Shown here: positions 914 to 55,949 of the stretch, piece after piece
How positions within the stretch are numbered: position 1 is the first letter of the stretch
Layout: each line of letters opens with the position of its first letter
Source: Fundidesulfovibrio putealis DSM 16056
GTDB taxonomy: Bacteria > Desulfobacterota > Desulfovibrionia > Desulfovibrionales > Desulfovibrionaceae
Assembly (NCBI RefSeq): GCF_000429325.1
Contig: NZ_AUBQ01000014.1
Location: 62,001-126,000 of the forward strand
Direction of reading: 5' to 3'
Length of the DNA: 64,000 nucleotides
Program-made: the position numbers and the translations under genes
Notes under the pieces: generated by a model
The model's input: the letters and a program-made list of their open reading frames with translations, nothing else
The model's database searches: none
Told to the model about the DNA's origin: nothing

Positions 914-914
914 A

Positions 915-2854: not shown

Positions 2855-2875
2855 AAATATATTTCATCAACTTCA

Positions 2876-3889: not shown

Positions 3890-3901
3890 GCCTGTCACCA
3901 G

Positions 3902-5176
3902 TTAACGCCCGCTCCGGCTGTCCACGATTTCCTTGAACATTGCATAGCCTGCCTGGCCGTTGCGCACCTGCAAGCGCGCGGACTCCGACAACGCCTCCCT
4001 GGAGAGGCTGGCCCGCCCCAGAGAGACGCCAAGCGCGTTCTCCAGGCGGTTTTCATATTCCGAGTCCAGCAGGACGACTTCAGCTCCCCCCGGAAACATG
4101 TCGGCCACACCGTCGAACTTGGCGCGGTAGTAGGCGGACTTCGCCAGCGCGACCACGGGGATTCCCTGCGACAGGGCCAGCACGGCTCCGTGGTAACTGC
4201 CGGTGACCACCACGGCGCACTGCCCGATCACATCGATCACATCGGCGGGAGACTGCGCCCGGCTGGCTCCGCCGGATTCCACGTCCAGCCCGCAGAGGCG
4301 CAGGGAATTGAGGTCGGAGTCCTGGTCGTGGATCGAGATGGAAAACGGCACGACGCCGACGCCCGCCTCACCAGCAGTGCGGGTCACGACTCCGGCGATG
4401 CGCACGGCGTCTTCATGGCTCACTCCGGAATAAGCGGCCACCCGGACATTGAGCCCGATCGCGCTTCCCGGAGCCTTGCCGTTCGCCTGAAGGGCCAGTT
4501 CGATCGCGTCGTCACCCGTGATGAGGCAGCGTCTGGGCGCGCCGCCAACCGAATTGAGCAGCTTTTCACCGCCGAGCCGCTCCCTGAGCCCGAGATAGGA
4601 CAGGCGGGGCAGTACACGCATGGCTGCTGCGTGCAACCGGGCCGAAGTGATCGGCCCAAGCCCCTGGCCGAACATGGCGGTAGGCTTCCCCATGCGCTGG
4701 GCCATGCGCAACAGGGCCAGCGTCTCAAGGGCGTGCCCTTCGAATTCGTCGTTGACGAACCCTCCTCCCGTGCTCACCACGGCATCCGCTTCCGAAACAG
4801 CGGTGAAGAACTCGTCCACAACCCCGGTATCGATCTTCTTGAACGCACCGCGAAGTTTCGCCAGGGCCAGACCGCCCCGGGGCAACACGCTCAGGCCCTC
4901 GGAGTACATGTCGCTGAGGCGCGCCGCCAGCCCGGAGCGTTTGTTCTTGAGCGCACCTGGGATGAGGTTGCCCAGGGCGTTGAACAGCATCTTGCCCTTC
5001 GCGGGGACCGGCTCGGCCTCTGGGCAGAGCCTGCGTAATGCCTGCGGGTCCAGGGTCAGGACATTGATGCGCGCGCGGGGCCAGAGTCCCCGCAGGCGGG
5101 AAACCCCGACCTGCAACATGGCCGCGTCGCCGAGATTGCGCAGGTGATACCCGGAATTGTCCACGAGGATCTTCAT
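3902..5176 (-). CDS. Polysaccharide pyruvyltransferase family protein
   Basis: Product of 424 aa. It begins MKILVDNSGYHLRNLGDAAM, the usual opening of the family, and later shows STGGGFVNDEFEGHALETL and VTGSYHGAVLALSQGIPVVAL, the GT-B-like domain pair of PS_pyruv_trans proteins. Such enzymes add pyruvate ketals to EPS sugars, though some members may be glycosyltransferases. ATG at 5176 is chosen because GGAG lies 6 nt upstream; in-frame GTG (5203) and ATG (5194) are less well placed. It follows the ABC flippase gene closely. Confidence 0.8.
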   Translation of the reverse strand: MKILVDNSGYHLRNLGDAAMLQVGVSRLRGLWPRARINVLTLDPQALRRLCPEAEPVPAKGKMLFNALGNLIPGALKNKRSGLAARLSDMYSEGLSVLPRGGLALAKLRGAFKKIDTGVVDEFFTAVSEADAVVSTGGGFVNDEFEGHALETLALLRMAQRMGKPTAMFGQGLGPITSARLHAAAMRVLPRLSYLGLRERLGGEKLLNSVGGAPRRCLITGDDAIELALQANGKAPGSAIGLNVRVAAYSGVSHEDAVRIAGVVTRTAGEAGVGVVPFSISIHDQDSDLNSLRLCGLDVESGGASRAQSPADVIDVIGQCAVVVTGSYHGAVLALSQGIPVVALAKSAYYRAKFDGVADMFPGGAEVVLLDSEYENRLENALGVSLGRASLSREALSESARLQVRNGQAGYAMFKEIVDSRSGR

Positions 5177-5207
5177 TTCATGCTCCGCTTTCATTGGTGG
5201 CACCGCG

Positions 5208-7016: not shown

Positions 7017-7056
7017 GCTGATAACTCCCTTGCCGGGGTCCTGCCTGCCGTGCGGC

Positions 7057-8193
7057 TCAATTGGCCCTGGGGTTCCAAGTGACAAAACGCCGCCCCCGCA
7101 CAAAGCCCACAAACCCCAGTATTCCGGAAACTTGCAGCAGGACGAAAAAATACGACACTCTGAACACTCCGCCAGCGCCCCGGTATCCGGCCCATGCTCC
7201 GCCGTATGCAGCCAGCTGCGCCGCGAGAAACACGCCGTATCCCGGCCCGCACGCGGCCAGGAAAACATTCGCGACCAGGAGCCCGGCCATCAGCGGCAGC
7301 GACAGCCAGCGCAGCGCCTTGTGGGAAAGCAGTTGCCAGACGTATCCGGTTTTTCCGGCGGCAAGCAGAAGCGGCAGTTGCGAAACCACCACGTGCCAGG
7401 ACTGGGACATTATCCGGGTCTGGCGGGCCAGCTCGTCCGCGCCGCTGTCGGCGGCGGGTTCCACGCACACGGCGTCCGGTTCGCTGACCGCCCGTTTGCC
7501 CTTGGCCGCAACCTGGATGGTGTGGACAAAATCGTTGATCAAGTCGGGGCTCAGGGGCTCGAAAAGCTCCCGTCGCATCGCATAGATGGCGCCGTCCGCC
7601 CCGACGATGGAAAACGCCTCGCTCTCGTAGCCCTTGATCCACTCCTCGTAGGCTCGGTACAGACCAGCGGCCAGGGGCTTGCCGGTCGCCGGGTCCACGT
7701 AGAGGGTCCGCCCGCTCACCAGTCCCACGTCCTGCGAGGAGAAACGTGCGGCCAGGCGGCGCAGGGCGTCGGGACGGAACATGGAGTCGGCGTCGGTGAA
7801 CACCAGGATATCCCCGGCCGCTTCCGATGCCGCACGGTTGAGGGCTGCGGTCTTCCCCTGCCGGACGGACTGGCAGAGCAGGCGGACGCGCCCGCAGGGA
7901 TGCCCGGCCACCAGGCCTTCCGTGGCGTCCGTGCTGCCGTCGGAGACCACCACCAGTTCCAGAAGCTCAGGCGGGTAATCAAGAGCGAGAAAGTTCTCGA
8001 TCTTTTCGCGTATCACTGCCTCCTCGTTGAACACGGAAAGCAGGATGCTCACCGAGGGCTGCGGGGTGTCGCCCCCAGGACCGCGCGAGGGGCGCGTCCT
8101 TGCCACAAGGGCCGCCAGAGCCACAAGGACCGGATAGCCCGCGTAGGAATAGACCAGGACCGCCAGGCAGGCCCAGAAGATGAATGTTGTCAT
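7057..8193 (-). CDS. Membrane-bound glycosyltransferase family 2
   Basis: Product of 378 aa with an N-terminal membrane helix (MTTFIFWACLAVLVYSYAGY), a cytoplasmic GT-A domain and C-terminal hydrophobic helices. Motifs include SILLSVFNEE, VVSDGSTDAT and the DxD-containing VFTDADSMF. Architecture resembles processive or lipid-acceptor GT2 enzymes such as those of EPS loci. ATG at 8193 overlaps the TGA of the upstream aminotransferase gene in an ATGA junction, so translation is coupled. The longer in-frame opening to 8340 lies inside the aminotransferase gene and is rejected. Sugar specificity cannot be read. Confidence 0.87.
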   Translation of the reverse strand: MTTFIFWACLAVLVYSYAGYPVLVALAALVARTRPSRGPGGDTPQPSVSILLSVFNEEAVIREKIENFLALDYPPELLELVVVSDGSTDATEGLVAGHPCGRVRLLCQSVRQGKTAALNRAASEAAGDILVFTDADSMFRPDALRRLAARFSSQDVGLVSGRTLYVDPATGKPLAAGLYRAYEEWIKGYESEAFSIVGADGAIYAMRRELFEPLSPDLINDFVHTIQVAAKGKRAVSEPDAVCVEPAADSGADELARQTRIMSQSWHVVVSQLPLLLAAGKTGYVWQLLSHKALRWLSLPLMAGLLVANVFLAACGPGYGVFLAAQLAAYGGAWAGYRGAGGVFRVSYFFVLLQVSGILGFVGFVRGRRFVTWNPRAN

Positions 8194-9344
8194 GCCACGC
8201 TCCTTGCGAGCGTTTCCCGGTCGGCCTCGGTGACGAAGCAGTGAGTCGGCAGTGTTACCAGCTCCCGGGCCAGCCTGCGCGCCTCGGGGCAGTCCTGCGC
8301 GCCGTGGACGACGTGCGGCCTGAGTTCCTGGAGATCGCACAGGGCCTGGGGGTAGGAGCGCACGACTCCCATTTCCGGAATCTCCCTGCCAGCCTGCCCC
8401 AGGCAGGGCAGCCTGAGGTAAACCGGCCGGGACCCCGGAGCGGGCTCGGGAAATCTGCCGGGCTTGCCGCTGCGGCGGATGATGTCCTCCGCATTGCGGA
8501 CGCGCTCTTGGTTGATTTCGTCCAGGCGCCCGAACATCCTGCGCCCCAGGGCGGCCTGGAACGGGGACATCTCCCCGATGGGGAAATCCGGCTCAAAGAC
8601 CGACGCCCCGATTTTCAGGAACGGCAGACTCCGGGGCAGCCAGTATATCTGCGGGCGTTGCAGAGCCCATATCAGCAGCGCCTTGAGCGCAAGCGCAGGA
8701 ATGTCGCGACGGCGCGACGGCTCACACGCGACACCGGCAATGGCCCTGGACAGCTCCGAGTCGTTGGTCAGGATCACGCCGCCGTCCACCGAGGTAATGT
8801 TCTTGCCCCGGCTGAGGCTCAGGATGCCGGCGATGCCCGACATGCCCGTCGCGCGGCCCTCCACTGTCGCCCCCATGGCCTGGGCGGCGTCGTCCACCAG
8901 CGGCACACCGTGCCCGGCAGCGATGTCGGCAAGCCCGTTCATGGGACACGGATAGCCGAACAGGTGGCAGACCACGGCACAGACCACATCAGGGCCGAGG
9001 CTGCGCTCGAAACTGCCTGGCTCGGGGCAGAGGGTGGCGGGGTCCAGGTCGTAAAAGGCCACCTTGAGTCCCGAGCGGACGGCTGCGGATGCCACGGAGT
9101 AGGAAGTAAACGCCGGGAGCGAAACCGTGTCACGCTCCGGGGTGCGGGCGCGAAGGGCCGAAAACAGCGCGCTCAGGGCCGCCCTGCCCGAGCTGAACAG
9201 GTGGCAGTGCTCCGCATGGAAACGCCCGCGCAGGTCGTCGCCAAAGCGCCGCGCGGCCTGATCCCCCCGCACGGCGTCGAACGCCGACGATGCGATGTCG
9301 GCACAACGGACAGGGGAAGCGGAAGGGGAAAGATTACGGGGCAT
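8190..9344 (-). CDS. DegT/DnrJ/EryC1/StrS-family PLP aminotransferase
   Basis: Sugar aminotransferase-like protein of 384 aa. The PLP-phosphate loop is SSGRAALSAL (51-60), the PLP-ring contact is VDDAAQ (150-155), and K181 in SLSRGKN is the likely Schiff-base lysine. Such enzymes convert nucleotide keto-sugars to amino-sugars, fitting precursor supply for the EPS; the GNAT five genes downstream could acetylate the product. Note that SLSRGKN replaces the more usual SFxxxK form. GGAG lies 8 nt before the ATG. It starts 15 nt after the FemAB-like gene ends. Confidence 0.85.
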   Translation of the reverse strand: MPRNLSPSASPVRCADIASSAFDAVRGDQAARRFGDDLRGRFHAEHCHLFSSGRAALSALFSALRARTPERDTVSLPAFTSYSVASAAVRSGLKVAFYDLDPATLCPEPGSFERSLGPDVVCAVVCHLFGYPCPMNGLADIAAGHGVPLVDDAAQAMGATVEGRATGMSGIAGILSLSRGKNITSVDGGVILTNDSELSRAIAGVACEPSRRRDIPALALKALLIWALQRPQIYWLPRSLPFLKIGASVFEPDFPIGEMSPFQAALGRRMFGRLDEINQERVRNAEDIIRRSGKPGRFPEPAPGSRPVYLRLPCLGQAGREIPEMGVVRSYPQALCDLQELRPHVVHGAQDCPEARRLARELVTLPTHCFVTEADRETLARSVA

Positions 9345-9359
9345 GATTCTGGCTCCGGG

Positions 9360-10442
9360 TCAGGGAATGCTGCGTACCAGCAAAGGGCCTATCACCTTGG
9401 TCACCGGAACCGGCAGGCGTTTCCAGACCGCGATGGCGGCCTGATAGCGGGGATTGGTCGGAGTGATGTCCGGAATGGAATCGCCAGGCTTCAACATGTA
9501 TTGCCAGTGCAGCTGGATCGGAGCCGCCCCCCACTGCGCCTTGAACTTGTACGTTCCGCCTCCGGGGGTGGAGCGGCCGAAATCCAGGACGTCCAGCCCC
9601 TGCCCGACGGCAAAGCGGATGGCCTCCCAGTAGAGCAGGTTGTTGGGGCAGGAGGAGTTGTACTCCCGCAACGAAGAAGCCCAGGGCACCTCAAGCCTGC
9701 CGCGATGCCACATGACCAGCCCGCCGGCGACGGGTTTCCCGTCGAGCTCGACCATGATGATGCGGCTTGATGCCGGAAACTCTTCAAGTATCCTGGCAAA
9801 GAAGGATTTCGGATATACCGGAGTCCCCAGGTCCCGCATGTTGTGGGCGAACACCGCATAGAACCCGTCCAGCAAGGCCTGATCGCACACTGTGGCCGTC
9901 AGCCCGCTCTTCTGGGCCTTGCGCACCTGGTTGCGCACCTTGGCGTTCAGTTTGGCCCACAGGGCCTCTTCCGAATCGCCAAGAGGCAGCAGCATGCTCA
10001 CTTTATGGGAACGGACAGGCAAACCCTCAACGACAGTCCCGGCATGGCGCAGCTCCACATGGGCAGCGCCCAGGCGTTCCCGCAGCTCTGCGGCTTCAGC
10101 AAGCAGCAGGCGCTCCTCTTCGCGACCGTCTGCCAGCACGCCGCCGTAATTCAGGAAAGGCATGGAAACCAGGAACGTGCCGAACAAGCGGCTCTTCAGA
10201 AAGACCAGCGGCAGGATACCGTGAAGGGTCGAGTCGGCTGCTTCCACGGCCAGGGCATAGGTCTCATGGCCGAAAACGCGCTTGATCACCCGCAGCCATC
10301 CCATCTGATGCGCCGATGACGCGCCCGGAGCGGAATCCACGTAAGCGTCCCACATGCCGGAATCGACAGCGGAGTCGGGATCGAGCAGCCGCAGACTCTT
10401 CTGCCCACCGATGCGGCCCGCCCCAGGTTCTACCTGGCGCAT
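9360..10442 (-). CDS. FemAB-like GNAT-fold protein of exosortase-A-type EPS loci
   Basis: Product of 360 aa. SSAHQMGWLRVIKRVFGHETYA at the N-terminus, the LPLVFLKSRLFG segment and the C-terminal FGRSTPGGGTYKFKAQWGA block are typical of FemAB-related proteins linked with PEP-CTERM/XrtA EPS operons. FemAB enzymes add amino acids from aminoacyl-tRNA to peptidoglycan; the substrate in EPS loci is not established. The ATG at 10442 lies inside the end of the deacetylase gene (13-nt overlap), so the two are coupled. Confidence 0.85.
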   Translation of the reverse strand: MRQVEPGAGRIGGQKSLRLLDPDSAVDSGMWDAYVDSAPGASSAHQMGWLRVIKRVFGHETYALAVEAADSTLHGILPLVFLKSRLFGTFLVSMPFLNYGGVLADGREEERLLLAEAAELRERLGAAHVELRHAGTVVEGLPVRSHKVSMLLPLGDSEEALWAKLNAKVRNQVRKAQKSGLTATVCDQALLDGFYAVFAHNMRDLGTPVYPKSFFARILEEFPASSRIIMVELDGKPVAGGLVMWHRGRLEVPWASSLREYNSSCPNNLLYWEAIRFAVGQGLDVLDFGRSTPGGGTYKFKAQWGAAPIQLHWQYMLKPGDSIPDITPTNPRYQAAIAVWKRLPVPVTKVIGPLLVRSIP

Positions 10443-11317
10443 GCAAGGTGCTCCGTCATGGCGCGCTCCAGGACCGTGCCCATGGGAGCGAACGGCAGCG
10501 AGGCGAAGAGATGGCGAAGCTTGCCTTCCGTCTTGTGCAGATTGACGTAGTGCCTCAGGCGGGATTTGAGCTTCGCGCGGATGCGGGGCTGGCCTGGATC
10601 AAGCTCCCAGGGATGGAAGTACAGCACCACTGGCTGGCGCTCACGCCGCCCGATTCTGCTCAGAGCCCGCCGCACCAACTCCACGGGGAACAGGCGAAGG
10701 TAGCCTCCGCCGGACACGGGGAGCTTGTACTTGAAGCCCATGGCGCTCATTTCCAGCGTGCTGGGTGGAAACTCCATGATGCAGCCCGAGTCCCGCCGGA
10801 TCATGTGCGGAAAGCTCGGAGCGTCCGGGATGCCATAGGTGTCGTGATGAATGGGAAAGATGCTGGAATCGTAGCGAAAGCCTTCTTCGATCAGGATGTC
10901 CAAGGCCCAGAGGCTCTGGGCGGTGATGGAATAGCTGGGAGCCCGGTAGCCATGCACGGGCTGGCCCGAGATATCCTCAAGGAGGTCTTTCGCTCTGCGG
11001 ACGTCAGCGCGAAACGCGTCGGGTCCGATGCGGTAGATCAGCTGATGTCCATACCCATGGCAGGCCAGTTCATGGCCCTCGCCGATGATGCGTCTGACCA
11101 TGGCCGGGCGGCGCTTCGCTTCCCAGCCCAGCACGAAGAACGTGGCCTTCAGCCCGTGTTCCGCGAACAGGTCCAGCACGCGGTAGGTGTTGTCCTCCAC
11201 TCTGGACTCGAATGATTCCCATTGATGAGGGGAGACGACATCCGCGAACGCCTGGACCTGGAAATAGTCTTCCACGTCCACCGTAAGGGCATTCAAAATT
11301 ACATCGGGGGCTTTCAT
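10430..11317 (-). CDS. Polysaccharide deacetylase, XrtA-associated type
   Basis: NodB-fold carbohydrate esterase of 295 aa. TVDVEDYF (12-19) holds the catalytic Asp pair, HGYGH (H87, H91) completes the metal triad, and RAPSYS gives the arginine motif. The C-terminal part (YLRLFPVELVRRAL, VLYFHPWELD) matches the extra domain of the subgroup found beside exosortase A. It would remove N- or O-acetyl groups from the polymer. No signal peptide is visible, as is usual for this subgroup, so its compartment is uncertain. AGGA precedes the ATG. Confidence 0.9.
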   Translation of the reverse strand: MKAPDVILNALTVDVEDYFQVQAFADVVSPHQWESFESRVEDNTYRVLDLFAEHGLKATFFVLGWEAKRRPAMVRRIIGEGHELACHGYGHQLIYRIGPDAFRADVRRAKDLLEDISGQPVHGYRAPSYSITAQSLWALDILIEEGFRYDSSIFPIHHDTYGIPDAPSFPHMIRRDSGCIMEFPPSTLEMSAMGFKYKLPVSGGGYLRLFPVELVRRALSRIGRRERQPVVLYFHPWELDPGQPRIRAKLKSRLRHYVNLHKTEGKLRHLFASLPFAPMGTVLERAMTEHLACAR

Positions 11318-11323
11318 AACGTC

Positions 11324-12589
11324 CTAGAAGGTTTTCTTCAGGCTCAAACCCACGATGTTCACATTATAGTTGAGTGAGGAGCCCTGGCTCGAATCGTAAA
11401 TTTTCCAGCGGTAGTAGCCCTCCAGGGAGAAATCCTTGCCCAGGGAATATTCCAGGCCGCCGTTCGCATACCAGCGGACCTGGGTGTAGCTGCTGGTCAC
11501 AGTCGAATTGCGGGAAGCCCCGGCCTTGAGCATCAAACGCGGAGTGATCTCGTAACGGGCGACAACTCCCAGTGCGAGTTGGTCCGAATCGCGCGTGTCC
11601 TCGCCGTCCGTGTTGCTGAGCGACGCATTCGCCTGAAGATTCAGCTTTTCCCCCTGCCAGGCGAGGGAAAGCCCTGCGGTTTTCTTCAATGTGGAGTACG
11701 TCGCTACCGGGTTCTCCGTATACAGGGAGGACAGAATCGCCTTCGCCGTAAACCTGTTGAGCGTGTGAGACCAGACTGCATCAACATAGGGATTGAGGCT
11801 GGTGTTGCCGTTGTCGTAGGCTGAATATCTGGGACCAACTTTTGCCGAGATGTATCCATCCTCGGAGTACTGCCACCTGAACCCAGCGTTTACGTACGTC
11901 CGTTGCAATCCACCGGTGCGGGAGTCCTGCCGTAAGGTGTTTGCATCGAGAGTGATCTGCCACAGCGGCGTCAACTCGTATACGAAGTTCGCAAACACTC
12001 CATTGCTGATTTTGTTTTTGGCACTTCCATATGAAGTTGAGTTGATGTTAGAATCCGTATTTGCTCCATCACCATAGAAGTACCCTATGAACTCGTAGCC
12101 GATCATGCTCGAGAGCCTGTCGGACAGGCGCGGAGTCATGTATACTCTCCCACTTGTAACGTACTGGTCAACCTGAGACCTTGTGGAGTCAGTGGGATTT
12201 GTCTCGCCTCGAATAAGGTTGTTATATACCTGCTTGAAAGTTCCATGCGCTTCCACAAAGAGCAGTTCTTCAGCAAGCGTCACTTTTGCATTGACCAGCG
12301 CGCTGCCCTTGAATTCGTCGTTTCGGTTGCCCAGCGCATAGACGTTGAAAGAGCCGTCCACTTCACCATCCGCCTCGATCCGGGCAGACTGGTATTTGAC
12401 CTTGCCTACGGCGGTCGCCTTGCTGACCCAATCCGCCTGGGCGTTGGATTTTTCATTGACGTTGGAGTTGTATTCCTCGCCGACGCCAAGCGTCATGGAA
12501 TATTCCGACGTACCGGCCAGGGACGAAACTGGCATGGCGAAGAACGCCAGGAGCACGGTCAAATAGAGTGGCACCCGCATATCCAGCAT
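11324..12589 (-). CDS. Outer-membrane beta-barrel protein of the EPS system
   Basis: Product of 421 aa with a signal peptide ending near VSSLAG. It then has alternating aromatic/polar strands (for example EYNSNVNEKSN, GRVYMTPRL, LEGYYRWKIY) and a C-terminal aromatic residue (LSLKKTF*), the hallmark of BAM-inserted barrels. It matches the XrtA-locus outer-membrane family in position and layout and may form or support the export pore. ATG at 12589, one base after the ATPase stop, has GGAG 9 nt upstream; another ATG at 12580 is possible. Confidence 0.82.
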   Translation of the reverse strand: MLDMRVPLYLTVLLAFFAMPVSSLAGTSEYSMTLGVGEEYNSNVNEKSNAQADWVSKATAVGKVKYQSARIEADGEVDGSFNVYALGNRNDEFKGSALVNAKVTLAEELLFVEAHGTFKQVYNNLIRGETNPTDSTRSQVDQYVTSGRVYMTPRLSDRLSSMIGYEFIGYFYGDGANTDSNINSTSYGSAKNKISNGVFANFVYELTPLWQITLDANTLRQDSRTGGLQRTYVNAGFRWQYSEDGYISAKVGPRYSAYDNGNTSLNPYVDAVWSHTLNRFTAKAILSSLYTENPVATYSTLKKTAGLSLAWQGEKLNLQANASLSNTDGEDTRDSDQLALGVVARYEITPRLMLKAGASRNSTVTSSYTQVRWYANGGLEYSLGKDFSLEGYYRWKIYDSSQGSSLNYNVNIVGLSLKKTF

Positions 12590-12590
12590 C

Positions 12591-13847
12591 CTATAGCGCT
12601 CCAAATATCAGACGTTTCATCCAACCCTTGGCGGGAGGTTCGGCCTTTACCTCAGTGGTTTCGGGCGGCGCGGACGCCGTCTGGCATTCGAACTCGGCCG
12701 GGGGAACCACAACATCATCGTGACGCTCAAGACGCTCTTTCAACGCGTCCACCTCGCCTGCGATATGGCTCACATTGCGGTTCATCTCGTCCAGGCGCGC
12801 CTGCAGGCTCTCCTGGAAAAGCGTCAACTGGCCGTGAAGCGCGCTCTGGTCGGGCATAACTGGCTGACGGGAGGACTCCAACCTGGGCAGCGCGTCCTCG
12901 ATGCATTTGAGCCTGCCGTTGAGATTCTTCAGAAGCGAAGTGATCTTTGCGGTGGCCCGTCCGGCGGAGTGACGCTGCCCGAGGGTCTCGGCAGGGCCGG
13001 AATCCGCATCGACCGGGTCTACAACGGGGTTCCAGTACTGGTTGTCGAAGTTGAGGTCGCCTGCCACCTCATGCACGGCGTCCACCGTGATCTCGTGCGA
13101 CTCACGGGCGAAGGCGTCCAGGAGAAGATAATCGCACAAAATGTTTATCAGGCGCGGCACGCCCCTGGTATACTGGGAGATTGCATCGTACGCCTCGGAG
13201 GAAAAGCTCACGGCGTTGCGATTTCCCGCAGATTCGAGGCGGTGGGTGATGTACCCCTCCATCTCCGTGGCCGGGAGCGGATGGATATGGCAGCTGACCT
13301 GGATGCGCTGGCGCAACTGAAGAAGCTCCGGCGCGGCGAGCAGTTGCTTGAGCTCGGGCTGACCAACCAGAATTATGCGCAGAAGCTTCTGGTAGTCGTT
13401 CTCCAGATTGGAAAGCAGCCGCACTTCTTCCAGCAGTTCATGGGTGAGGTTCTGGGCCTCATCGATGATAAGCACGCACTGGCGGCCCTTGGCATATTGA
13501 GAGATGAGAAAATCGTTCAACTCGCGAAGGAGCGAAGGCTTGTCCTTGCCCGAGGGGCGCACTCCGAAGTCTTCCAGGATCATTTCCAGCAACTGCTGGG
13601 CCTCGACCTTCGTATTGAAGATCTTGGAGAGGGTCACGTCGGTCAACTGGCTGTTGATGAGCCTGCGAATGAGCGTTGTCTTTCCGGTGCCCACCTCGCC
13701 GGTCAGTAGAATGAATCCGCTCTGCTGGCGAATGCCGTACGTCAGGTAGTTCAATGCCTTGCGATGTGCCTGGCTCATGTAAAGAAACGACGGATTCGGC
13801 ACCAACTCGAAGGGTTTATGCTCCAAGTTGAAGAATGACTCGTACAC
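12591..13847 (-). CDS. ExeA/GspA-like secretion ATPase of XrtA-type EPS locus
   Basis: AAA ATPase of 418 aa beginning (G/V)YESFFNLEHKPFELVPNP, the standard opening of this family. Walker A is GEVGTGKT (about 50-57) and Walker B is VLIIDEAQN. The C-terminal third is predicted coiled and charged and ends with a hydrophobic tail. The family always travels with exosortase-A EPS genes and is thought to energise or organise assembly. GTG at 13847 is preferred: it has GGAGAGGA just upstream and matches the family start. GTG at 13889, overlapping the kinase stop as GTGA and also preceded by AGGAG, is a real alternative. Confidence 0.86.
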   Translation of the reverse strand: MYESFFNLEHKPFELVPNPSFLYMSQAHRKALNYLTYGIRQQSGFILLTGEVGTGKTTLIRRLINSQLTDVTLSKIFNTKVEAQQLLEMILEDFGVRPSGKDKPSLLRELNDFLISQYAKGRQCVLIIDEAQNLTHELLEEVRLLSNLENDYQKLLRIILVGQPELKQLLAAPELLQLRQRIQVSCHIHPLPATEMEGYITHRLESAGNRNAVSFSSEAYDAISQYTRGVPRLINILCDYLLLDAFARESHEITVDAVHEVAGDLNFDNQYWNPVVDPVDADSGPAETLGQRHSAGRATAKITSLLKNLNGRLKCIEDALPRLESSRQPVMPDQSALHGQLTLFQESLQARLDEMNRNVSHIAGEVDALKERLERHDDVVVPPAEFECQTASAPPETTEVKAEPPAKGWMKRLIFGAL

Positions 13848-13885
13848 GTTCCTCTCCGGTTGTCCGCCACGCCCATTCGCCCCGC

Positions 13886-14707
13886 TCACTGGCCAGACTC
13901 CTGAGGCGCCGCATAGGCGTAGTGGTCGTAGTGGGAGGACTTGCGGAAAGGCAGTTCCCGCGCGCCGTTGTAAACCACGCCCATTACCCGGTGATCCAGG
14001 GCCTCAAGGGCGTCGCTGATGTCCTCTCGAGATGACTGGCCCTCGCGCACCACGAGAATGGTGGCGTCGGCCATGGCGGCCAGAGCGCGAGTCTCCGCGA
14101 ACATGTTCACCGGCGGCGAATCGATGAGGATGAACCTGTCGGGATAGCGATGCTTGAGTTCCTGAAGAAGCTGGCGCATTTTGTTGGACGAGAGCAGCTC
14201 CGCCGGGTTGGGCAGCGCCTTTCCCGCAGGCAAAAGCACCAGACGTCCAATGGCGAGACGTATCAGTGCTTCGGAGCAGTCGGCCTTGCCCTGGAGGCAA
14301 TCCGAAAGGCCGATCTTGGGTTCTATGCCCAGATACGTGTGGCTCTTGGGCGCGCGAAGGTCGGCATCAAGCAGCAGCACGGTATAGTCGAACTCCTGCG
14401 CAAGGCTGATGGCCAGATTGAGGGCCGTGACGGACTTGCCTTCCTTGGGGTTGGCGCTGGTGACCAGCACCACGTTGTTGAACCCTTCCCGGCTGGACTC
14501 TTTGATGAGCGCCTCTTTGAGTTTGCGATACTCTTCAGCCGTATGGGAATGCGGGGCAGTCAACGTCTGGAGTGTGTGCTCGGAAGGAATCGGCGCAAGG
14601 GCTTCGCCCAACTCCGATGCAAGAGGCGCGTTCGCTTTGGCCCGGCTCACAGGGCGGCCGGGGCTCGTCTGAACGGCCTTGTTGAGGGCCTCTTCAATTC
14701 TGCTCAT
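13886..14707 (-). CDS. BY-type tyrosine autokinase (CpsD/CapB/XrtA-associated)
   Basis: Soluble bacterial tyrosine kinase of 273 aa. Motifs are Walker A SANPKEGKS (84-92), Walker A' LLLDADLR (111-118) and Walker B ILIDSPP (193-199). A short C-terminal tyrosine cluster (Y260, Y263, Y265) is the likely autophosphorylation site. It needs an activating cytoplasmic tail, probably that of the chain-length protein encoded immediately upstream. Cycling of phosphorylation controls polymer length and export in homologous systems. AAGG lies 7 nt before the ATG. Confidence 0.9.
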   Translation of the reverse strand: MSRIEEALNKAVQTSPGRPVSRAKANAPLASELGEALAPIPSEHTLQTLTAPHSHTAEEYRKLKEALIKESSREGFNNVVLVTSANPKEGKSVTALNLAISLAQEFDYTVLLLDADLRAPKSHTYLGIEPKIGLSDCLQGKADCSEALIRLAIGRLVLLPAGKALPNPAELLSSNKMRQLLQELKHRYPDRFILIDSPPVNMFAETRALAAMADATILVVREGQSSREDISDALEALDHRVMGVVYNGARELPFRKSSHYDHYAYAAPQESGQ

Positions 14708-14726
14708 TAGATATCCTTGCCCTTGT

Positions 14727-16220
14727 TCATTTATTGAGGACAGTGCTGATTTTGGAGCTGACGAATTTGCGGGCGAGCTGTGCCTGTTCGTCCAGACGGA
14801 ACATATCCGCCATGGCGAAACTCAGCATCAAAACGAGATACCCTGTAGCAAAAACGAGGAATATCCTATCCACCCGGAGCTGCTTCGCGTCCGCAGCCAC
14901 ATCCGGCATGTGGGGAATCACGGCGAACACGGGCAGGTCGAACTCCTTCAGGGCAGTAGGCGATTTGATCCCGCCCTTGAAGAAATCAAGCAGGAAAATG
15001 AGCGCGAACCCGATGCCGAGCCCGGCTCCCGCCGAGCCCAGGATTATCAGCATCCTGTTGGGGCTGACAGGGGACAACGGCTTCACGGCGGGGTCAAGGA
15101 TGCGGAAGGTGATGGACTTGTCTTGCAGTTCCATCTGCTTGGAAACTTCCGACTGCCCATAGCGCGATACGAGCTGCTGATAGACAACTCCCTCGTTCTC
15201 TTTCTTCCGGACCAGCTCGGCCAAGGTGGATCTCACGTTGGGAATCTCGCGCAGAAGGGCTTTGCTGTCTTCCACGATCCGCAGCTGGCGGGCTTCCATT
15301 TCCTTGTACGCGTCGATCTCCACCTGGAGCATCTGGAGGCCGTCACGAACTGCCGCATTGGTCTTGCGCGACGAAGAGTCACCCCGACCGCTGCGCAGCC
15401 TCGCAACCTCAGCCTGCGCGGCAGCCACCTTCGGATGTTCGGATGTGTAGCGGCCAAGCAGTTCCGACAACCTGGCCTCGGCCTCTGCGAGTTTGCCCGG
15501 CTCAGGCCCCCGCTCCACAAAAATGCGTTTTTTGGCCTCAAGCTCGCTACGCTTGATGGCCAGCTCCTCCAGCTTCTTCTCCGCGTTGTTTATCTCACCG
15601 CGAAGATAGAGATCATCCGTGGCCAGGATCAGGCCCTTTTCACTTTTGTACTTATTGATTGCGTCGTCCGCCGCGTCAATGCGGCGTTTGAAGCTGTCAA
15701 TCTGTTCGGCCAGGAATTTGTTGGCCTCGAACGACTCCTCCCGCTTGGAGGACGTATTGGTGTCGATGTACTTCCGCGTCAGGGTGTTTACGAAATCGCT
15801 GGCGAATGCAGGGTCCTTGTCGCGCAAGGTGATCCTGAAAACGCCTTGCTTCTCCTGATAAGAAATCATGATCCGCTTGGTCAGGTCGGCGAGGTAGGCT
15901 TCAACCTGGCGCTCATCCTGAAGGAAGAGATCCTTGTCCAGTTCGCTCAGGACCTTGAGGACCATGTTTCTGCTGAGCAACGCGACGGACAGCATCTTGA
16001 GCTTGGCGTCAACGGAGGGTGAAACGGCAATGCCCTTCACCAGATCCGTTATGACGTTCTGTTCAAGGAACACTGTTGTTTTGGCTTCGTATTGTTTCGG
16101 AAGCATATACGCCACAATGACGCCGATAGTCATCACAAGCAAGAAGACAGAGACAAACAGCTTCTTCCTTGTGAGAATGATCTTCAAATAATAGTCATAA
16201 TCATTCAAGGCACTAGACAT
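14727..16220 (-). CDS. Wzz/GNVR-type polysaccharide chain-length determinant
   Basis: Polysaccharide co-polymerase of 497 aa. It has a Wzz domain with a first membrane helix at about 20-40 (LFVSVFLLVMTIGVIVAYML) and a long periplasmic coiled-coil (about 150-370). A GNVR-like PAVKPLSPVSPNR segment precedes the helix at about 395-415, and an additional hydrophobic segment lies near 455-475. It sets chain length and couples the tyrosine kinase to the export pore. It matches the XrtA-system length and layout. GGAG lies 7 nt before the ATG. Confidence 0.9.
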   Translation of the reverse strand: MSSALNDYDYYLKIILTRKKLFVSVFLLVMTIGVIVAYMLPKQYEAKTTVFLEQNVITDLVKGIAVSPSVDAKLKMLSVALLSRNMVLKVLSELDKDLFLQDERQVEAYLADLTKRIMISYQEKQGVFRITLRDKDPAFASDFVNTLTRKYIDTNTSSKREESFEANKFLAEQIDSFKRRIDAADDAINKYKSEKGLILATDDLYLRGEINNAEKKLEELAIKRSELEAKKRIFVERGPEPGKLAEAEARLSELLGRYTSEHPKVAAAQAEVARLRSGRGDSSSRKTNAAVRDGLQMLQVEIDAYKEMEARQLRIVEDSKALLREIPNVRSTLAELVRKKENEGVVYQQLVSRYGQSEVSKQMELQDKSITFRILDPAVKPLSPVSPNRMLIILGSAGAGLGIGFALIFLLDFFKGGIKSPTALKEFDLPVFAVIPHMPDVAADAKQLRVDRIFLVFATGYLVLMLSFAMADMFRLDEQAQLARKFVSSKISTVLNK

Positions 16221-16239
16221 GCAATTTCTCCGTTAAGGG

Positions 16240-17106
16240 CTAGAAAAACCCTTCCTCCACGATAACCATGTCGCCGCGCCGAAGCAGCAGGTTCTGGCTG
16301 GAGTCCCCGCCTTCCATCAGGCGTTTGCCCTTGACCTTGACGATCTCTTCCTTGTCGCCGCTACGACGGACAATCTTGGTGTCGTTCTTACTGGCGAACT
16401 TGGTGAAACCTCCGGCCTCCATCAAGGCGTCCAGAACGGTCATCCCTTCCCGGTAGGGCAATGTCCTCGGCGAGTTGACCGCACCGGAGACATACACGAA
16501 ACGGTCCTTCAGCACCGGAATGACGATGACGTCGCCGGCCTTCAGCTCCTGGTTGCGGGACACGTCCCCCTCTTCGTAGAGCTCGCGCAGTCCCTTGATG
16601 ACCACTGCGTTCTCACGGACGAGGGAAGCCTGACTCAGGTCGGCCACGCTCAGGTCTTCAATGCTGGCGAGCACCTGCAACAGGCTCTTGTGGGTGGCCA
16701 AGGCAAAGAATGTCGGCTTGACCCCTCCGCCAACGACGTAAACCTTGTCGTTCTGCCCATCCACAATGGTGACGCTGACCTGCGGCTTACGGACAAGGGT
16801 TTTGAGTTGGGATGCCAAACGCTCGCCGAGCTGGGTTGGGGTGAGGCCCGCAGCCACCACTTCCCCGATGTGGGGATAGGTGATTTTCCCGTCGGGCCGG
16901 ACAGATGCGGCGATGCTCAGGTCGGGTTCGCCTTCGACCGCTACAGCCAGCTTGTCGCCGACAACGATTGCGTAATCCCCCGCCAAAGCGCTGGTCGCCA
17001 TCAATAGAGTAAGAGCGATGGAAAGAATCGTCGTCACCTCTGGTTTCCTCCTGGGCTGTGTCTGGCCATGACGGCTGCCGTGTAAATCCCGGTTGACTGA
17101 GACCAT
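16240..17106 (-). CDS. Wza-like polysaccharide export protein (poly-export plus SLBB domains)
   Basis: Periplasmic/outer-membrane exporter of up to 288 aa. The poly-export domain starts at GDYAIVVGDKLAVAVEGEPD, and SLBB-type repeats follow (VYVVGGG, FVYVSGAVNSPRTLPY). The secretion signal VTTILSIALTLLMATSALA lacks a lipobox, unlike classic Wza. The start is unresolved. ATG at 17106, four bases after the preceding stop, gives a basic n-region. GTG at 17037 has the much stronger AGGAGG 9 nt upstream but leaves an uncharged n-region. Coordinates use the longer form. Confidence 0.88.
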   Translation of the reverse strand: MVSVNRDLHGSRHGQTQPRRKPEVTTILSIALTLLMATSALAGDYAIVVGDKLAVAVEGEPDLSIAASVRPDGKITYPHIGEVVAAGLTPTQLGERLASQLKTLVRKPQVSVTIVDGQNDKVYVVGGGVKPTFFALATHKSLLQVLASIEDLSVADLSQASLVRENAVVIKGLRELYEEGDVSRNQELKAGDVIVIPVLKDRFVYVSGAVNSPRTLPYREGMTVLDALMEAGGFTKFASKNDTKIVRRSGDKEEIVKVKGKRLMEGGDSSQNLLLRRGDMVIVEEGFF

Positions 17107-17112
17107 AAGCTT

Positions 17113-18492
17113 CTATCTTCCGCCCCTGCAGAAGAGCATGACTGCAATGGTTTTCAGTATTATCTTGAAATCAAGAAATATGGAAATGTTTTTGATGTAG
17201 TAAAGGTCGTAGCGCAACTTTTCCACGGCGTCCTCCACGGAGGCCCCGTAGGGGTAGCGTACCTGAGCCCAGCCGGAAACGCCCGGCTTCACGTAATGGC
17301 GCTCGGAATAGTAGGGAATGCGCTCCTTGAGGGTCCGGACGAACTCCGGGCGCTCAGGCCGAGGCCCGACCAGGCTCATCTCGCCCTTGAGCACGTTCAC
17401 CAGCTGGGGGATCTCATCGATGCGGGTCTTGCGCAGGATGCGACCCAGGCGGGTCACGCGGCAGTCGTTCTTCTGAGCCCAGACCGCTCCGGAGTTTTTC
17501 TCGGCGTCCTTGCACATGGAGCGGAACTTGATCAGGCTGAAGTTCCTGTCGCCCTGGCCCACGCGGATCTGCCGGAAAAAGACCGGTCCGGGGGATTCAA
17601 GCTTGATGGCCAGCGCCACCAGCAGGCCGATCGGCGCGAAGGCCAGCAGGCCGAAGGCCGAGAGGATCACGTCCACGGTGCGCTTGGTCGCCCGCAACAG
17701 GGGGGTGACCCGGAACCCGTTTGAGAAGATGAACCAACTGGGGGTGATGTTTTCGATCAGCAGTTTCCCGGTCATGCGTTCGAACATCGCGGGTGAATCG
17801 AGGACCTCGATGCCCGAGAGCTTGCAGCTCAGCATATCCTGGAGCGGAAACACGCCCCGGCGTTCAGTAAGTGAAATGACGACCTTGGTGGCGCCCAGGC
17901 GCTTCGCGGTCTCGAAGATGTCCTGCGCGTCCTCGGAGCGGGCCTCCTGGCTGGTGGCGGGGTATTCCACGGTGCCGACCAGTTCGAAGCGGTCCGAATG
18001 TTCCAGGACCATGTCCTTCATTTGCTGGGCCATGATCCCGTTGCCCACCAGCAGCACGCGGCCCCCGTTGCGCCTGGCCGACATGCCGAAGCTGCGCAGC
18101 ATTTCGCAAGAAAGGCTGAGAAGGGCGAACACGGCCAGACCCCAGGCGATTTCGGTCTGCCCCAGCCGGTTGGGGATGCGCGACTCCTCCAGGGCCAGGA
18201 ACAGCACGTAAGAGACCAGGATCGAAATCGCCGTCTTGGTCAGATGGATCACCATGCCCCTGCTCTTGGCGGCGTAGGCCAGGATGATCCCCACAAGCAT
18301 GGAGGGAAACGCGGCGATCACCAGGAAGTGCACGGCCTTGTCGGACGCAAATACGGATGTATCAAGCCCCTTCAAGCCCAGATGCGGCAGAACGAGCATC
18401 AACTGAAGCGCGGTCAGCGCGACGAGCACATCCAGGGCGCATTGCTTCAGCGTCAGCCTTCCTGTGTGTTGGTCATCGGTATGATTCTGCAT
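17113..18492 (-). CDS. Polyprenyl glycosylphosphotransferase initiating EPS synthesis (XrtA-associated)
   Basis: Product of 459 aa with four or five N-terminal membrane helices, a CoA-binding-like middle domain ([14 protein letters not shown]) and the C-terminal sugar-transferase domain. Catalytic motifs are [39 protein letters not shown] and [11 protein letters not shown]. It transfers a sugar-1-phosphate to undecaprenyl phosphate, the first committed step. ATG at 18492 is used because GGAGG lies 6 nt upstream; a TTG at 18519 is unlikely. It is the second gene of the operon, 63 nt after prsT. Confidence 0.92.
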
Positions 18493-18555
18493 GTGTTCCC
18501 TCCCCCAGGACGCGTTCAAACTGTGGACTCTTGCCGCGATCTTTCCAGCCGGTTT

Positions 18556-21120
18556 CTACGAGGCAGGTCCGCTTGCCCGCGCCATCTCCAGATGCTTGTC
18601 GATGTCCTTGCTGTTGGGCATCAACTTCTTTGCACGCTCAAGGACCACCACAGCTTCCTTGGCGCGACCGTTTTTCAAAAGCGCGTAACCCAACGTATCC
18701 ATCACCGATGCGCTGTTGGATTCCAGGGTGTAAGCCTTGACCGCCAGTTCCAGGGCCTTGGTCGCCTGACCCGCCTGGTCGGCGTAGATCATGGCCAGGT
18801 TGTTCAGGGCCAATGCCTGGCGCTCCTGGTAGCGAAGGGCTTTTTCGTACAGTTCCTGGGCGCCCTTGAGGTCGCCCTTCTGCTGAAGGATAACGCCCTT
18901 GAGGGCGTTGCCGTATGCGGGATCCATTCCAGCCGTGATGCCCTTGTCCAACAGAGCCAGGGCTTCAGCGGTGTTGTTGGCGCGGGATTCGATATTGGCC
19001 AGGGAGGTCAGCACGCGGGGATTGGCAGGATCGTCGCGCAGAACGTTTGTCAGGGTGGCTTTGGCAGCGTCAGCCTGACCGGCCATTTCCTGGATCTCCG
19101 CAAGAGGCAGGGCGTAGTCGCCGGAACGGGTGTTCATGCTGCGAAGCTTTTGAGCCACCTCGAGCGCCTGGGCGGTATTTTTCTGTGCGAGATAATACTT
19201 GGCCTTTTCCAGGAGACCGAGCCTCTGGTTGAGGGTCTCGACTCGTCCCAGGGAGGACAGGGCCTTCTCCTGGTCGCCCATGATGGAATGGATGCGGCTC
19301 TTGGTGAGCCAGCCCTGAATGTCCTTGGGATTGGCGGCCAGCATTTCATCCAGGACTACGATGGCCCTGGCGTTGTCGGAGCGCCTGACAAAGAACGACG
19401 CCAGCGCCAGTGACGCCTGGGGATTGTGGTTCTTGGCGGCGCGCTCCAGAAGGGCCTGGGCCTTCACAAGATCGCCCTGGGTTTCCCAGGCGCCGGCAGC
19501 GCCGGTCAGAGCGCGCTGGTCATCGGGAGCCACGGCGAGGGCCGCCTCGAATTCGGCGACGGCCTTGTCGAGGTTGCCGGTCGCGGCCTGGATGGCTGCC
19601 AGGTTGTAGTAGGTGATAAGCACCTTGGGTTCGAACTGCTTGGCTTTTTCCAGCAGTTCCTTGGCCTCGTCGAGCTTGTTCTGGCGCAGGCGCAGCTTGG
19701 CCATGCCGTTGTACGCGAGGGCGGCCCCGGCTCCTTCGGTCATGCCCGAGCGGAGCACCTCGACTGCCTCGTCGATGCGGTTCTGTCCTGCCAGGAAGGA
19801 GGACAGGTACAGGCGCGGCTCCAGGGTCTTGCCTCCGGCCTCGACCGCCTTGCGCAGGTCGACTTCAGCAGCGGCGTTGTCGCCCTTCATAGCCAGCAGC
19901 ATGCCCTTCTTGAGGAAAATCACCGGAGGGGATCCAGGCTGCTCACTCATCTTGGTGAACAGCTCCAGGCCCTTGTCGTATTCCTTCTTCGCAACCAGGG
20001 CGTCCGCGAGGATGCGCTGGCCGCCGAGGTCCGACGGAGAGAGTTCGAACACCTTCTGGGTCTCGGCGATCGCCTCGTCCAGGCGGTTCTGACGCAGGTA
20101 GATGGAAGCCAGCATGCGCCTGGGGCCTTCCAGGTCGGGCTTTGCCGAAAGGATGGACTGAAGGTGGCTGACGGCCGTCTCAAGGTTGCCGAGTCCCTGG
20201 TAGGTCTGGGCCAGGAACAGGTTGGTGTCTACGTCGGGGCGCAGCTTGTGGGCGGTCAGGAGCGGTTCCAGGGCCAGGGCGCCCTCGTTCTTGGCGAGGT
20301 ACGCCAGGCCCTTGAGCTTGTAGCCTTCAGGAGCCTTGGGGAATTCTCCGATCAGGGCGGTGGACACGGCCATGGCGTAATCGGCGTCCTGCTTCTTGGA
20401 GAGCTTCAGGAAGGCTTCCAGGTAACGCGCCCTGACGTCTGCCGGGTAGAACTTCCCTATCTTGCCGTAGGTTTCGATGACGGCGTCATCATCGTTTGCA
20501 AGAACCTGAATCTGGGCGAGCATGTGCAGCGCGGACTGGTTCTTGGGAGAATCCGCCAGGATCAGGTCGATCTCGCGCTTGGCCTGGTCGGTCAGTTTGC
20601 GCTGGAAGTAGGATTCGGCCAGGCCGATCCGGGACCTGGACAAGCTGCCGGAGATCGAGAGGGCCTTCTGATAAGAGCGCTGGGCTTCGTCGAACCAACC
20701 CAAGAGCATCAGGGCGTGCCCGGCCTGCTCCCAGGCCTCGCCACTGGCGCCAGGGGCATCCAGCACGGGCTTTAAGGCGTCGAGCGCTTCCTGGGGCTTG
20801 CGCTGGGCAATGAGAATCTTAGCATACAATACAGGCAGGCCCGGCGTTGCGGGGGCCTTCTGCATGATGGACTTCAGTTCGCTTTCGGCCTGGGCAAGCT
20901 TATCTGTGGCCACGTAGGCCTCAGCCAAAGCCATGGAGGCGGGGATGTCCCCAGGATACTTTTCAAGGAGGTTCTTGAAGACGACTATCGCGCCTTTGGA
21001 ATTACCTTTTTCGACAAGCTGGGTGCCCTGAAGCATCATCTCGTCACGGGACTTGTTGCCACACGCGTTCAGGAGGGCAACACACAATAACAGCAGCAGA
21101 CACAATGCTCTTCCTGTCAT
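18556..21120 (-). CDS. prsT: TPR-repeat lipoprotein PrsT, first gene of the EPS operon
   Basis: Product of 854 aa. A lipoprotein signal (MTGRALCLLLLLCVALLNAC) gives lipobox LNAC with C20 as the lipidated residue; +2 Gly suggests outer-membrane sorting. The remainder is about twenty tetratricopeptide-like repeats (recurring A.ALALNN.A, AK..FP patterns). The layout matches PrsT, the large TPR protein of exosortase-A/PEP-CTERM systems, presumably a periplasmic scaffold for assembly or export. A sigma-54-type promoter lies 73-88 bp upstream, with none seen further downstream, so this gene probably heads the whole operon. Confidence 0.88.
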   Translation of the reverse strand: MTGRALCLLLLLCVALLNACGNKSRDEMMLQGTQLVEKGNSKGAIVVFKNLLEKYPGDIPASMALAEAYVATDKLAQAESELKSIMQKAPATPGLPVLYAKILIAQRKPQEALDALKPVLDAPGASGEAWEQAGHALMLLGWFDEAQRSYQKALSISGSLSRSRIGLAESYFQRKLTDQAKREIDLILADSPKNQSALHMLAQIQVLANDDDAVIETYGKIGKFYPADVRARYLEAFLKLSKKQDADYAMAVSTALIGEFPKAPEGYKLKGLAYLAKNEGALALEPLLTAHKLRPDVDTNLFLAQTYQGLGNLETAVSHLQSILSAKPDLEGPRRMLASIYLRQNRLDEAIAETQKVFELSPSDLGGQRILADALVAKKEYDKGLELFTKMSEQPGSPPVIFLKKGMLLAMKGDNAAAEVDLRKAVEAGGKTLEPRLYLSSFLAGQNRIDEAVEVLRSGMTEGAGAALAYNGMAKLRLRQNKLDEAKELLEKAKQFEPKVLITYYNLAAIQAATGNLDKAVAEFEAALAVAPDDQRALTGAAGAWETQGDLVKAQALLERAAKNHNPQASLALASFFVRRSDNARAIVVLDEMLAANPKDIQGWLTKSRIHSIMGDQEKALSSLGRVETLNQRLGLLEKAKYYLAQKNTAQALEVAQKLRSMNTRSGDYALPLAEIQEMAGQADAAKATLTNVLRDDPANPRVLTSLANIESRANNTAEALALLDKGITAGMDPAYGNALKGVILQQKGDLKGAQELYEKALRYQERQALALNNLAMIYADQAGQATKALELAVKAYTLESNSASVMDTLGYALLKNGRAKEAVVVLERAKKLMPNSKDIDKHLEMARASGPAS

Positions 21121-21192
21121 AGACGATACCTTGGGATTTGAGTTTGTCGTCGCGACCGGAACGGCTTTGGAGCGCGATGGTTTTCTACACTA

Positions 21193-21208
21193 AGCCAAGA
21201 TCGTGCCA
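21193..21208 (-). promoter_or_regulatory. Sigma-54 (-24/-12) promoter of the EPS operon
   Basis: Minus-strand TGGCACGATCTTGGCT matches the RpoN consensus TGGCACG-N4-TTGCW at every fixed position except one T to G at the third-last consensus T. The GG and GC doublets keep the required 10-base gap. Predicted transcription would begin near 21182, leaving a leader of about 62 nt before prsT. Such a promoter needs an NtrC-family activator; none is encoded next to it. Confidence 0.8.
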
Positions 21209-21474
21209 AGCGGGGTCAAACCCAGTAACACACTGAATTTAAATGCCAACACCTGAAGCGCACAACCTGCCGAAAGTTGAAATCCACCCTAAAACGCCGT
21301 CTTGACATTCCGGACTGTCCGATAAAACAAGATTCTCGACAAAATTTACACAAGAAGCTTCCCAGAGAAACCAAATCGAAATCGAATCGGAACAACTATT
21401 TTATTCCTGGCAGGACACTCTGGCGAAACCTTCGTGCTTATCCTGCATTTTCAGCATATTATAACATTTCGAAT

Positions 21475-21489
21475 GTAGGGAAACCCTAC
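21475..21489. promoter_or_regulatory. Perfect inverted repeat, possible operator
   Basis: GTAGGG-AAA-CCCTAC, six-base arms around three bases, in the AT-rich spacer about 270 bp upstream of the prsT -24 element and 415 bp before the DUF4412 gene. The dyad is typical of a dimeric regulator site. The regulator is unknown. Confidence 0.45.
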
Positions 21490-21903
21490 TACGGATGTCA
21501 ATCTGAAAAAACCGGACTTTTGCAAAAACTGATCAAATCGACCATCGTTGCATCCTGTCTCGACGACCGATCCGCCATTGTACCTTATTTGCGTCTCATG
21601 CATAGCTGAATCTCACAAAGTGCTCCAGACAATCGAGGTGCGACCCAGATGGTTATCCATCGTTCGCCCTGATGTTCGCGACGCCCGTGCCGTGAGTCCA
21701 AAGCCAAGGCGCTGTGAGAGGGCACGAATCCGGAACGCCGGGGCCCCAATCCGCGCAGAACAGTATATATGATCCGCCGGCCAGCCACGCGCGAATACTA
21801 TTTCCAACGAGCGCGGCTGCCACGCGTTCCCCTGCCCTGTCCCGGCGCTTGACCCGGCGCGCCTTGGGTCTTACCGTTTTAAAACTCTGCGAAAGGAGCC
21901 AGC

Positions 21904-55900: not shown

Positions 55901-55949
55901 CGGCCAGGTCCTGGAGACCGGACCCGCCTCATGTCCACAATCCTCGTAA
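52923..55949 (+). CDS. Hybrid sensor histidine kinase with periplasmic ABC-binding-like domain
   Basis: Product of 1008 aa. Signal peptide (1-21), an ABC_sub_bind-like periplasmic domain (about 28-335; [20 protein letters not shown]), a membrane helix (about 341-363), two PAS domains (about 380-500 and 500-625), HisKA with phospho-acceptor H641 in GGIAHDFNN, HATPase (DSGPGIPPE near 796; [12 protein letters not shown]), and a C-terminal receiver with D933 in [12 protein letters not shown]. It probably senses a small metabolite. It overlaps the next gene, an NtrC-type regulator, by 19 nt. The position beside lactate genes suggests lactate or a related acid as signal. Confidence 0.9.

Follow-up and report, generated by a model that had tools for sequence, protein, structure and literature searches.

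Upstream of prsT in Fundidesulfovibrio putealis DSM 16056 lies a -24/-12 element of the sigma-54 type which, judged by sequence comparison, is genuine and shared with sulfate-reducing relatives, and which probably switches on one 39-kb block of slime (glycan) genes. The window, i.e. the whole stretch of 64,000 nucleotides that was analysed, corresponds to C7:62001-126000 in a genome of 4.7 Mb in 29 contigs; positions without a contig prefix refer to the window (Table 1). We lean, if only slightly beyond an even balance, towards a reading in which a DVUA0024-type activator opens the sigma-54-dependent prsT-to-prsR glycan operon via an upstream palindrome, and PrsR then drives the PEP-CTERM genes.

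Table 1. Features upstream of and within the prsT-to-prsR gene run, in window coordinates
Feature	Position	Strand	Basis
Sigma-70-like match TTGACA-18-TACATT, holding dyad GTAGGGTTTCCCTAC (candidate only)	21472..21501	minus	Consensus scan, 10/12
Weak PrsR-type box TGTAAATTTTGTCGAGA, reverse orientation, 13.6 bits (doubtful)	21334..21350	minus	Matrix scan
Candidate activator site, imperfect 19-bp palindrome AATCTTGTTTTATCGGACA	21316..21334	minus	Matrix trained on other genera; 0/200 shuffles as good
Sigma-54 type -24/-12 element TTGGCACGATCTTGGCT	21193..21209	minus	Sequence; matrix scan; similar site before prsT in 23/30 family loci
prsT, first gene of run	18556..21120	minus	TIGR02917, 423 bits, cut-off 312.2
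XrtA glycan genes: EpsB2 glycosyltransferase, export protein, chain-length determinant, tyrosine kinase, ATPase, outer membrane protein, deacetylase, FemAB-like	9360..18519	minus	Each above NCBIfam cut-off; tight spacing
Aminotransferase-like, glycosyltransferases, ABC transporter, pyruvyltransferase-like, O-antigen-ligase-like, acetyltransferase-like	915..9344	minus	Best NCBIfam/Pfam matches, several below equivalog cut-offs
Start of 423-aa gene; run goes on outside window, from C7:61693 down to prsR at C7:43727	1..964	minus	Frames on joined stretch

The sigma-54 promoter of prsT

The original prediction placed a -24/-12 element at 21193-21208, and the sequence bears this out: the 16-mer TGGCACGATCTTGGCT lies there on the minus strand, within the 17-mer TTGGCACGATCTTGGCT, 72 nt before the ATG of prsT. 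The 17-mer has one mismatch to TGGCAC-N5-TTGC and carries the GG and GC doublets at the 10-nt spacing, with surrounding consensus, of a sigma-54 promoter. The transcript of prsT is predicted to start near 21182, 12 nt past the GC. In a weight matrix scan with sigma-54 weights, the element ranks second among the sigma-54-like sites of the window. Three sites score at least 15.4 in 247,872 strand positions (the window plus three 20-kb flanks), about 0.004 such sites are expected per 300 nt on one strand, and the site score of the prsT upstream region has p=0.003 (1/300 resamples). The bare consensus is not enriched, either genome-wide (241 matches with at most one mismatch versus 255 for the reversed control) or in the window (3 matches versus 6.3 expected), so that conservation has to decide on the prsT element, and the case for it rests on position and conservation. 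A sigma-54 gene is encoded in the genome.

The top sigma-54-like site of the window, TTGGCACGGTTGTTGTT (63916-63932, minus strand), lies elsewhere, 108 nt before a gene for an FAD-linked oxidase (62426-63808) that is followed by an Fe-S protein gene; the pair may form an operon for an oxidase of the lactate or glycolate type.

The element had been described as the only strong promoter-like signal upstream of the polysaccharide genes. This does not hold, as a sigma-70-like match (TTGACA-18-TACATT, 10/12) is also present on the minus strand at 21501-21472. A sigma-70-type promoter at this point could carry most prsT transcription, leaving the sigma-54 site a minor role, and the prsT of Aquincola tertiaricarbonis does appear to be independent of rpoN1 (PMC9850573). 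However, such consensus matches arise by chance (3 found versus 0.8 expected in 1.1 kb), the sigma-54 site and the palindrome are conserved across genera, and the Aquincola arrangement differs, with prsT following pepA and a terminator-like stem (PMC9850573), and we therefore regard this explanation as improbable. The dyad GTAGGGTTTCCCTAC that the match contains, approximately 350-380 nt before prsT (21472-21501, minus strand), could be a further regulator site. GTAGGG or CCCTAC repeats occur at a similar distance in both congeners with prsT (G002 and G005), and single copies occur in five other genomes of the 23.

The prsT-to-prsR gene run

The downstream genes lie on one strand and are tightly packed, as predicted, but the predicted extent of 21 kb and 17 genes was set by the window edge and covers only the part inside the window. 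The same-strand run from prsT to prsR comprises 32 called genes over 39.4 kb (C7:43727-83120), genes being taken as the longest frames of at least 150 aa, such that short genes may be missed and some overlaps, of 143-212 nt, are start-codon artefacts. Neighbouring genes overlap or are separated by at most 36 nt, with the single exception of a 96-nt gap, and a gap of 249 nt follows prsR. Past the window edge (stretch L002) the run ends with an exosortase, epsI, prsK and prsR. PrsT, PrsK (459 bits, cut-off 300), PrsR (604 bits, cut-off 502.6) and the XrtA-associated glycan genes all exceed their curated cut-offs, as expected of an XrtA (exosortase A) glycan locus; the exosortase scores 200.4 bits on the XrtA model (cut-off 208) and 193.2 bits on the general exosortase model (cut-off 105.55).

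Within the run, both terminator-like matches (19 versus 17.8 expected; 20 versus 19.3) and sigma-70-like matches (5 versus 4.8 expected; 11 versus 7.1) are near chance. One sigma-70-like match falls inside the 96-nt gap and counts against our reading. The run likely forms one transcript. Because prsR is part of it, an NtrC-type activator is encoded with the operon, contrary to the supposition that none is encoded beside it.

Conservation across Desulfovibrionaceae and other families

PrsT-like matches (1e-60) were found in 35 of 288 genomes of the family, and 30 of these loci were scanned; the remaining five genomes (G006, G062, G178, G196 and G241), in none of which PrsR exceeds its cut-off, were left out as lacking the locus. 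A sigma-54-like site above 10.5 bits is present within 450 nt of prsT at 23 of the 30 loci, among PrsT proteins of down to approximately 30% identity. PrsR exceeds its cut-off in 28 of the 35 PrsT-bearing genomes, including all 23 with the site, and 22 of these 23 have prsR on the strand of prsT and downstream of it, at approximately 12-42 kb start to start. The exception, G243, also has no palindrome (see below). As for the seven loci where the site is missing, two have a match that starts inside the profile and have no PrsR; the other five (G021, G285, G291, G293 and G294) have PrsR, with prsR not on the same strand downstream of prsT. In Nitratidesulfovibrio vulgaris RCH1 the prsT site is GTGGCACGGTATTGGCT.

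In family f5, all five genomes carry a looser GGCAY-N5-TTGA element, which is below the matrix threshold and in which the GC has lost its C; a palindrome precedes it by 107-186 nt (0/200 shuffles as good in four genomes, p=0.04 in one). In family f4, a prsT-type site with palindrome is found in only one of ten prsT upstreams (G323), and five of the remaining nine have CGGGCATTGAACTTGCT (8.9 bits) in common, without the palindrome. As the genomes are related, p-values overstate independence throughout.

The equality of the genome-wide pattern counts with their reversed control would suit a chance match before prsT. Given where the site lies, how it scores and that it recurs at 23 of 30 loci among such diverged PrsT proteins, we consider this highly implausible. 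The prediction that a sigma-54 promoter heads the glycan operon is supported by the conserved site in the family and in RCH1, the sigma-54 gene and the D. vulgaris listing given in PMC4641369.

A palindrome in place of the PrsR-type box

The prsT promoters carry a 19-bp palindrome, TGTCCGG-N5-CCGGACA, and not the PrsR-type box of PEP-CTERM genes, which in F. putealis and four relatives is the 17-nt TGTCGG-N5-TTTACA. The latter agrees with the published PEP-CTERM motif 1, which has 17 nt and ends in TTTACA (PMC1569441). The PEP-CTERM set of 39 comprises 15 of 18 own matches, all 23 in the four relatives and one of three annotated in the RCH1 stretch, the last chosen for its strong site; 29 of the 39 upstreams have a sigma-54-like site of at least 9 bits. 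At 10 bits the palindrome occurs in 23 of 24 prsT upstreams (shuffle mean 0.9) versus 4 of 39 PEP-CTERM upstreams (0.8), and the box in 33 of 39 PEP-CTERM upstreams (1.5) versus 6 of 24 prsT upstreams (0.9). These counts, with 15 shuffles each, are in-sample, since both motifs were first spotted by eye in the same sequences, and compare unequal lengths, 220 nt for prsT and up to 500 nt for PEP-CTERM genes. When each genus was left out in turn, with training sites that came from the all-genus matrix, the palindrome was better than all 200 shuffles in 20 of 24 prsT upstreams and weaker in G077 (p=0.01), G074 (0.03), G071 (0.125) and G243 (0.65). Its weakness in three Nitratidesulfovibrio genomes and absence in G243 count against our reading.

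In F. putealis the palindrome starts 125 nt before the -24 box; across the 24 upstreams the distance is 99-106 nt in 15 and 121-141 nt in eight, including the own genus. On sequence grounds, this conserved palindrome is a candidate upstream activator site for the sigma-54 promoter. No 17-nt box ending in TTTACA lies 32-92 nt before the sigma-54 motif of prsT, as it would in a PrsR-type promoter. The box that adjoins the palindrome, TGTAAATTTTGTCGAGA, starts 141 nt before the sigma-54 site and is doubtful because the prsT upstreams of the congeners G002 and G005 have no box above 8 bits.

Palindrome-type sites were also seen before PilZ genes (G059, G060 and G259), a manC-like gene (G026) and an oligosaccharide-flippase-like frame that overlaps a longer frame (G060), the last two named by eye. 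The G026 site belongs to a pair of opposite sigma-54-like sites (L170, C8:447141 and 447687): toward the manC-like gene a palindrome lies upstream, and toward a PEP-CTERM gene a perfect palindrome together with a PrsR-type box. A palindrome pattern search of 19 genomes (at most one mismatch) was rejected as a regulon definition, being too noisy: the matches listed exceed the reversed control in most, not all, of the genomes.

The palindrome might be another form of PrsR site, or weaker boxes upstream might be used, in which case PrsR alone would drive its own prsT operon in a positive feedback loop. For D. vulgaris Hildenborough, DVUA0036-DVUA0041 has been reported to have a sigma-54 promoter and to be among the targets of DVUA0057 (PMC4641369; also PMC3333781), DVUA0036 being prsT and DVUA0057 prsR (Table 1 of PMC1569441). 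This published binding of PrsR at the prsT operon (PMC4641369) counts against our reading, as do the predicted motif that DVU0110 is given in common with DVUA0057 (PMC4641369), the 16.7-bit box 243 nt before the prsT site of RCH1, and the number of prsT upstreams with a box, six where 0.9 are expected. The presence of PrsR in all 23 site-bearing genomes and the weak box before prsT in F. putealis would also suit a loop. We nevertheless think it unlikely, as the palindrome so outnumbers the box at prsT, with the reverse at PEP-CTERM genes, and as the two sets of sites also differ in the -12 region. As to the PrsR link that the original prediction implied, the DNA here has a simpler reading, since the prsT palindrome is unlike the box found before PEP-CTERM genes; moreover, in A. 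tertiaricarbonis loss of rpoN1 seemed to leave prsT transcription as it was, although pepA depended on rpoN1 (PMC9850573).

The base before the -12 GC

The base before the GC is T in one of 24 prsT sites (G in 14, C in seven and A in two) versus 27 of 29 PEP-CTERM sites, ten of the 39 PEP-CTERM upstreams having been left out of the count with sites below 9 bits (Fisher 1e-11, kinship among genomes ignored). The matrix favours T, so its bias works against this result for prsT. When the scan was made blind to the base before the GC, T was found in 0 of 20 prsT palindrome sites and in 17 of 17 boxed sites; the other palindrome sites, with T in 4 of 11, count against our reading. Among ten PilZ genes near the second activator described below, seven have a sigma-54-like site of at least 13 bits, all seven without T before the GC; the palindrome is present in only three of the ten, which likewise counts against our reading. 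In work on nif promoters, the bases beside the -12 GC are reported to tune the dependence of a promoter on a tethered activator.

A second NtrC-type activator and its PilZ neighbour

Besides prsR, last in the run, a second NtrC-type gene lies close to the operon at C7:36066-37526, approximately 6 kb past prsR. Such a second NtrC-type gene is near the locus in 19 of the 23 site-bearing regions (26 regions were joined, G293 and G294 not among them). The second-activator genes group into two clades: the first (support 0.97) spans 13 genomes, and the other (support 1.00) is made up of the own genus, two genomes of the genus Nitratidesulfovibrio and the RCH1 gene that adjoins the prsT locus; the latter clade thus places the F. 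putealis gene with the RCH1 gene, which is apparently the orthologue of DVUA0024, judging from its plasmid position and not from a locus-tag match. The two clades are not joined with support, which counts against our reading. Their predicted DNA-reading helix is alike (mostly SRARLYE) versus SRPTFYD in PrsR; SRARLY is also found in two controls from outside the joined loci.

In the genus of G250, an orthologue of the second activator (at least 55% identity) is present in 10 of 10 genomes with prsT versus 0 of 26 others, and it lies on a different contig from prsT in G275, G250 and also the fragmented G248. In the own genus it is present in three of three genomes with prsT versus none of three without (the incomplete G006 left out). 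PrsR co-occurs with prsT too, which counts against our reading. By elimination and from this co-occurrence, we infer that a DVUA0024-type protein acts on the prsT palindrome.

The second activator of the own genus has N, H or Y in place of the phosphate-accepting Asp and lacks the acidic pair, so this protein is probably not switched by a kinase; in G074, G077 and RCH1 the Asp is replaced by E. A PilZ gene (C7:35349-35918) lies just upstream of the second activator in F. putealis, and one is near it in RCH1. The Pfam PilZ cut-off is exceeded by the genes of G059, G273, RCH1 and F. putealis, with G259 just under, and a motif scan, which missed the F. putealis gene, found PilZ genes at 10 of 19 linked loci.

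Immediately following the second activator is a gene for a FeeM-like N-acyl amino acid synthase (C7:37546-38523; L169:15546-16523, plus strand). The second-activator gene of G259 (L274, C1:1410132-1411550) has an in-frame stop, and its Hildenborough counterpart is also broken. Inside the window, 52923-57337 (plus strand) encodes a hybrid histidine kinase of 1008 aa, whose N-terminal part resembles ABC substrate-binding proteins, and then an NtrC-type response regulator (55931-57337); the latter was ruled out as the prsT activator, as it falls in another clade.

A proposed two-step model

In the favoured reading, an NtrC-type activator bound at the palindrome would open the sigma-54 promoter of prsT, the likeliest candidate being the DVUA0024-type protein encoded just after the PilZ gene. 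The operon would then deliver the exosortase along with the glycan machinery, ending with PrsK and PrsR, and PrsR would activate the scattered PEP-CTERM genes via TGTCGG-N5-TTTACA at sigma-54 promoters with the normal TTGC. A base other than T before the GC may make polymerase bind prsT promoters less well, such that only a tethered activator would fire them. Where a promoter has both sites, PrsR may in addition act back on prsT.

A fuller version of this model, which we put forward tentatively and hold to fall somewhat short of an even chance, is that a two-step sigma-54 cascade builds the Desulfovibrionaceae matrix. A kinase-independent DVUA0024-type activator, which the neighbouring PilZ gene may link to cyclic-di-GMP, would fire the 39-kb glycan operon at a promoter whose -12 box is weakened; prsR, at the end of that operon, would fire the PEP-CTERM genes, and the base before the GC would insulate the two steps. 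Since the glycan operon would be fired first and its last gene would fire the PEP-CTERM genes, the glycan machinery would precede the anchored proteins. What has been regarded as a single PrsR regulon would fall into two steps, one for the glycan and one for the PEP-CTERM genes. The promoters would also offer a natural case in which the -12 region varies systematically with the kind of upstream site, and this bears on how cross-firing is avoided in a cell that has around 39 NtrC-type proteins (matches of at least 195 bits).

Comparison with known systems

For D. vulgaris, the prsT operon has already been published as having a sigma-54 promoter and as being bound by PrsR, so sigma-54/PrsR control there is not new; what is new, at the level of sequence, is the prsT palindrome and the -12 base difference. 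The palindrome, this difference and a role for DVUA0024 were not found in the literature searched, which covered few subscription journals. DVUA0024 is a pseudogene in Hildenborough and was left out of the regulon analysis (PMC4641369). The palindrome thus offers a candidate site, and a testable role, for an activator whose regulon was not reconstructed for the model strain (PMC4641369).

The Hildenborough prsT operon is alike in its sigma-54 promoter, its family and the presence of PrsR in the exopolysaccharide operon of the locus, but differs in that the activator is given as PrsR and DVUA0024 is broken (PMC4641369, PMC3333781). The PEP-CTERM promoters described with motif 1, motif 2 and PrsK-PrsR share a sigma-54 motif with an upstream activator box (PMC1569441), whereas in the prsT promoters here the 19-bp palindrome replaces or accompanies the box, and the -12 GC is not preceded by T. 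The pepA promoter of A. tertiaricarbonis is likewise a -24/-12 promoter of an exosortase system, mapped there and predicted from sequence here. It drives a PEP-CTERM gene that depends on rpoN1, while prsT transcription in that organism seemed unaffected by rpoN1 loss (PMC9850573).
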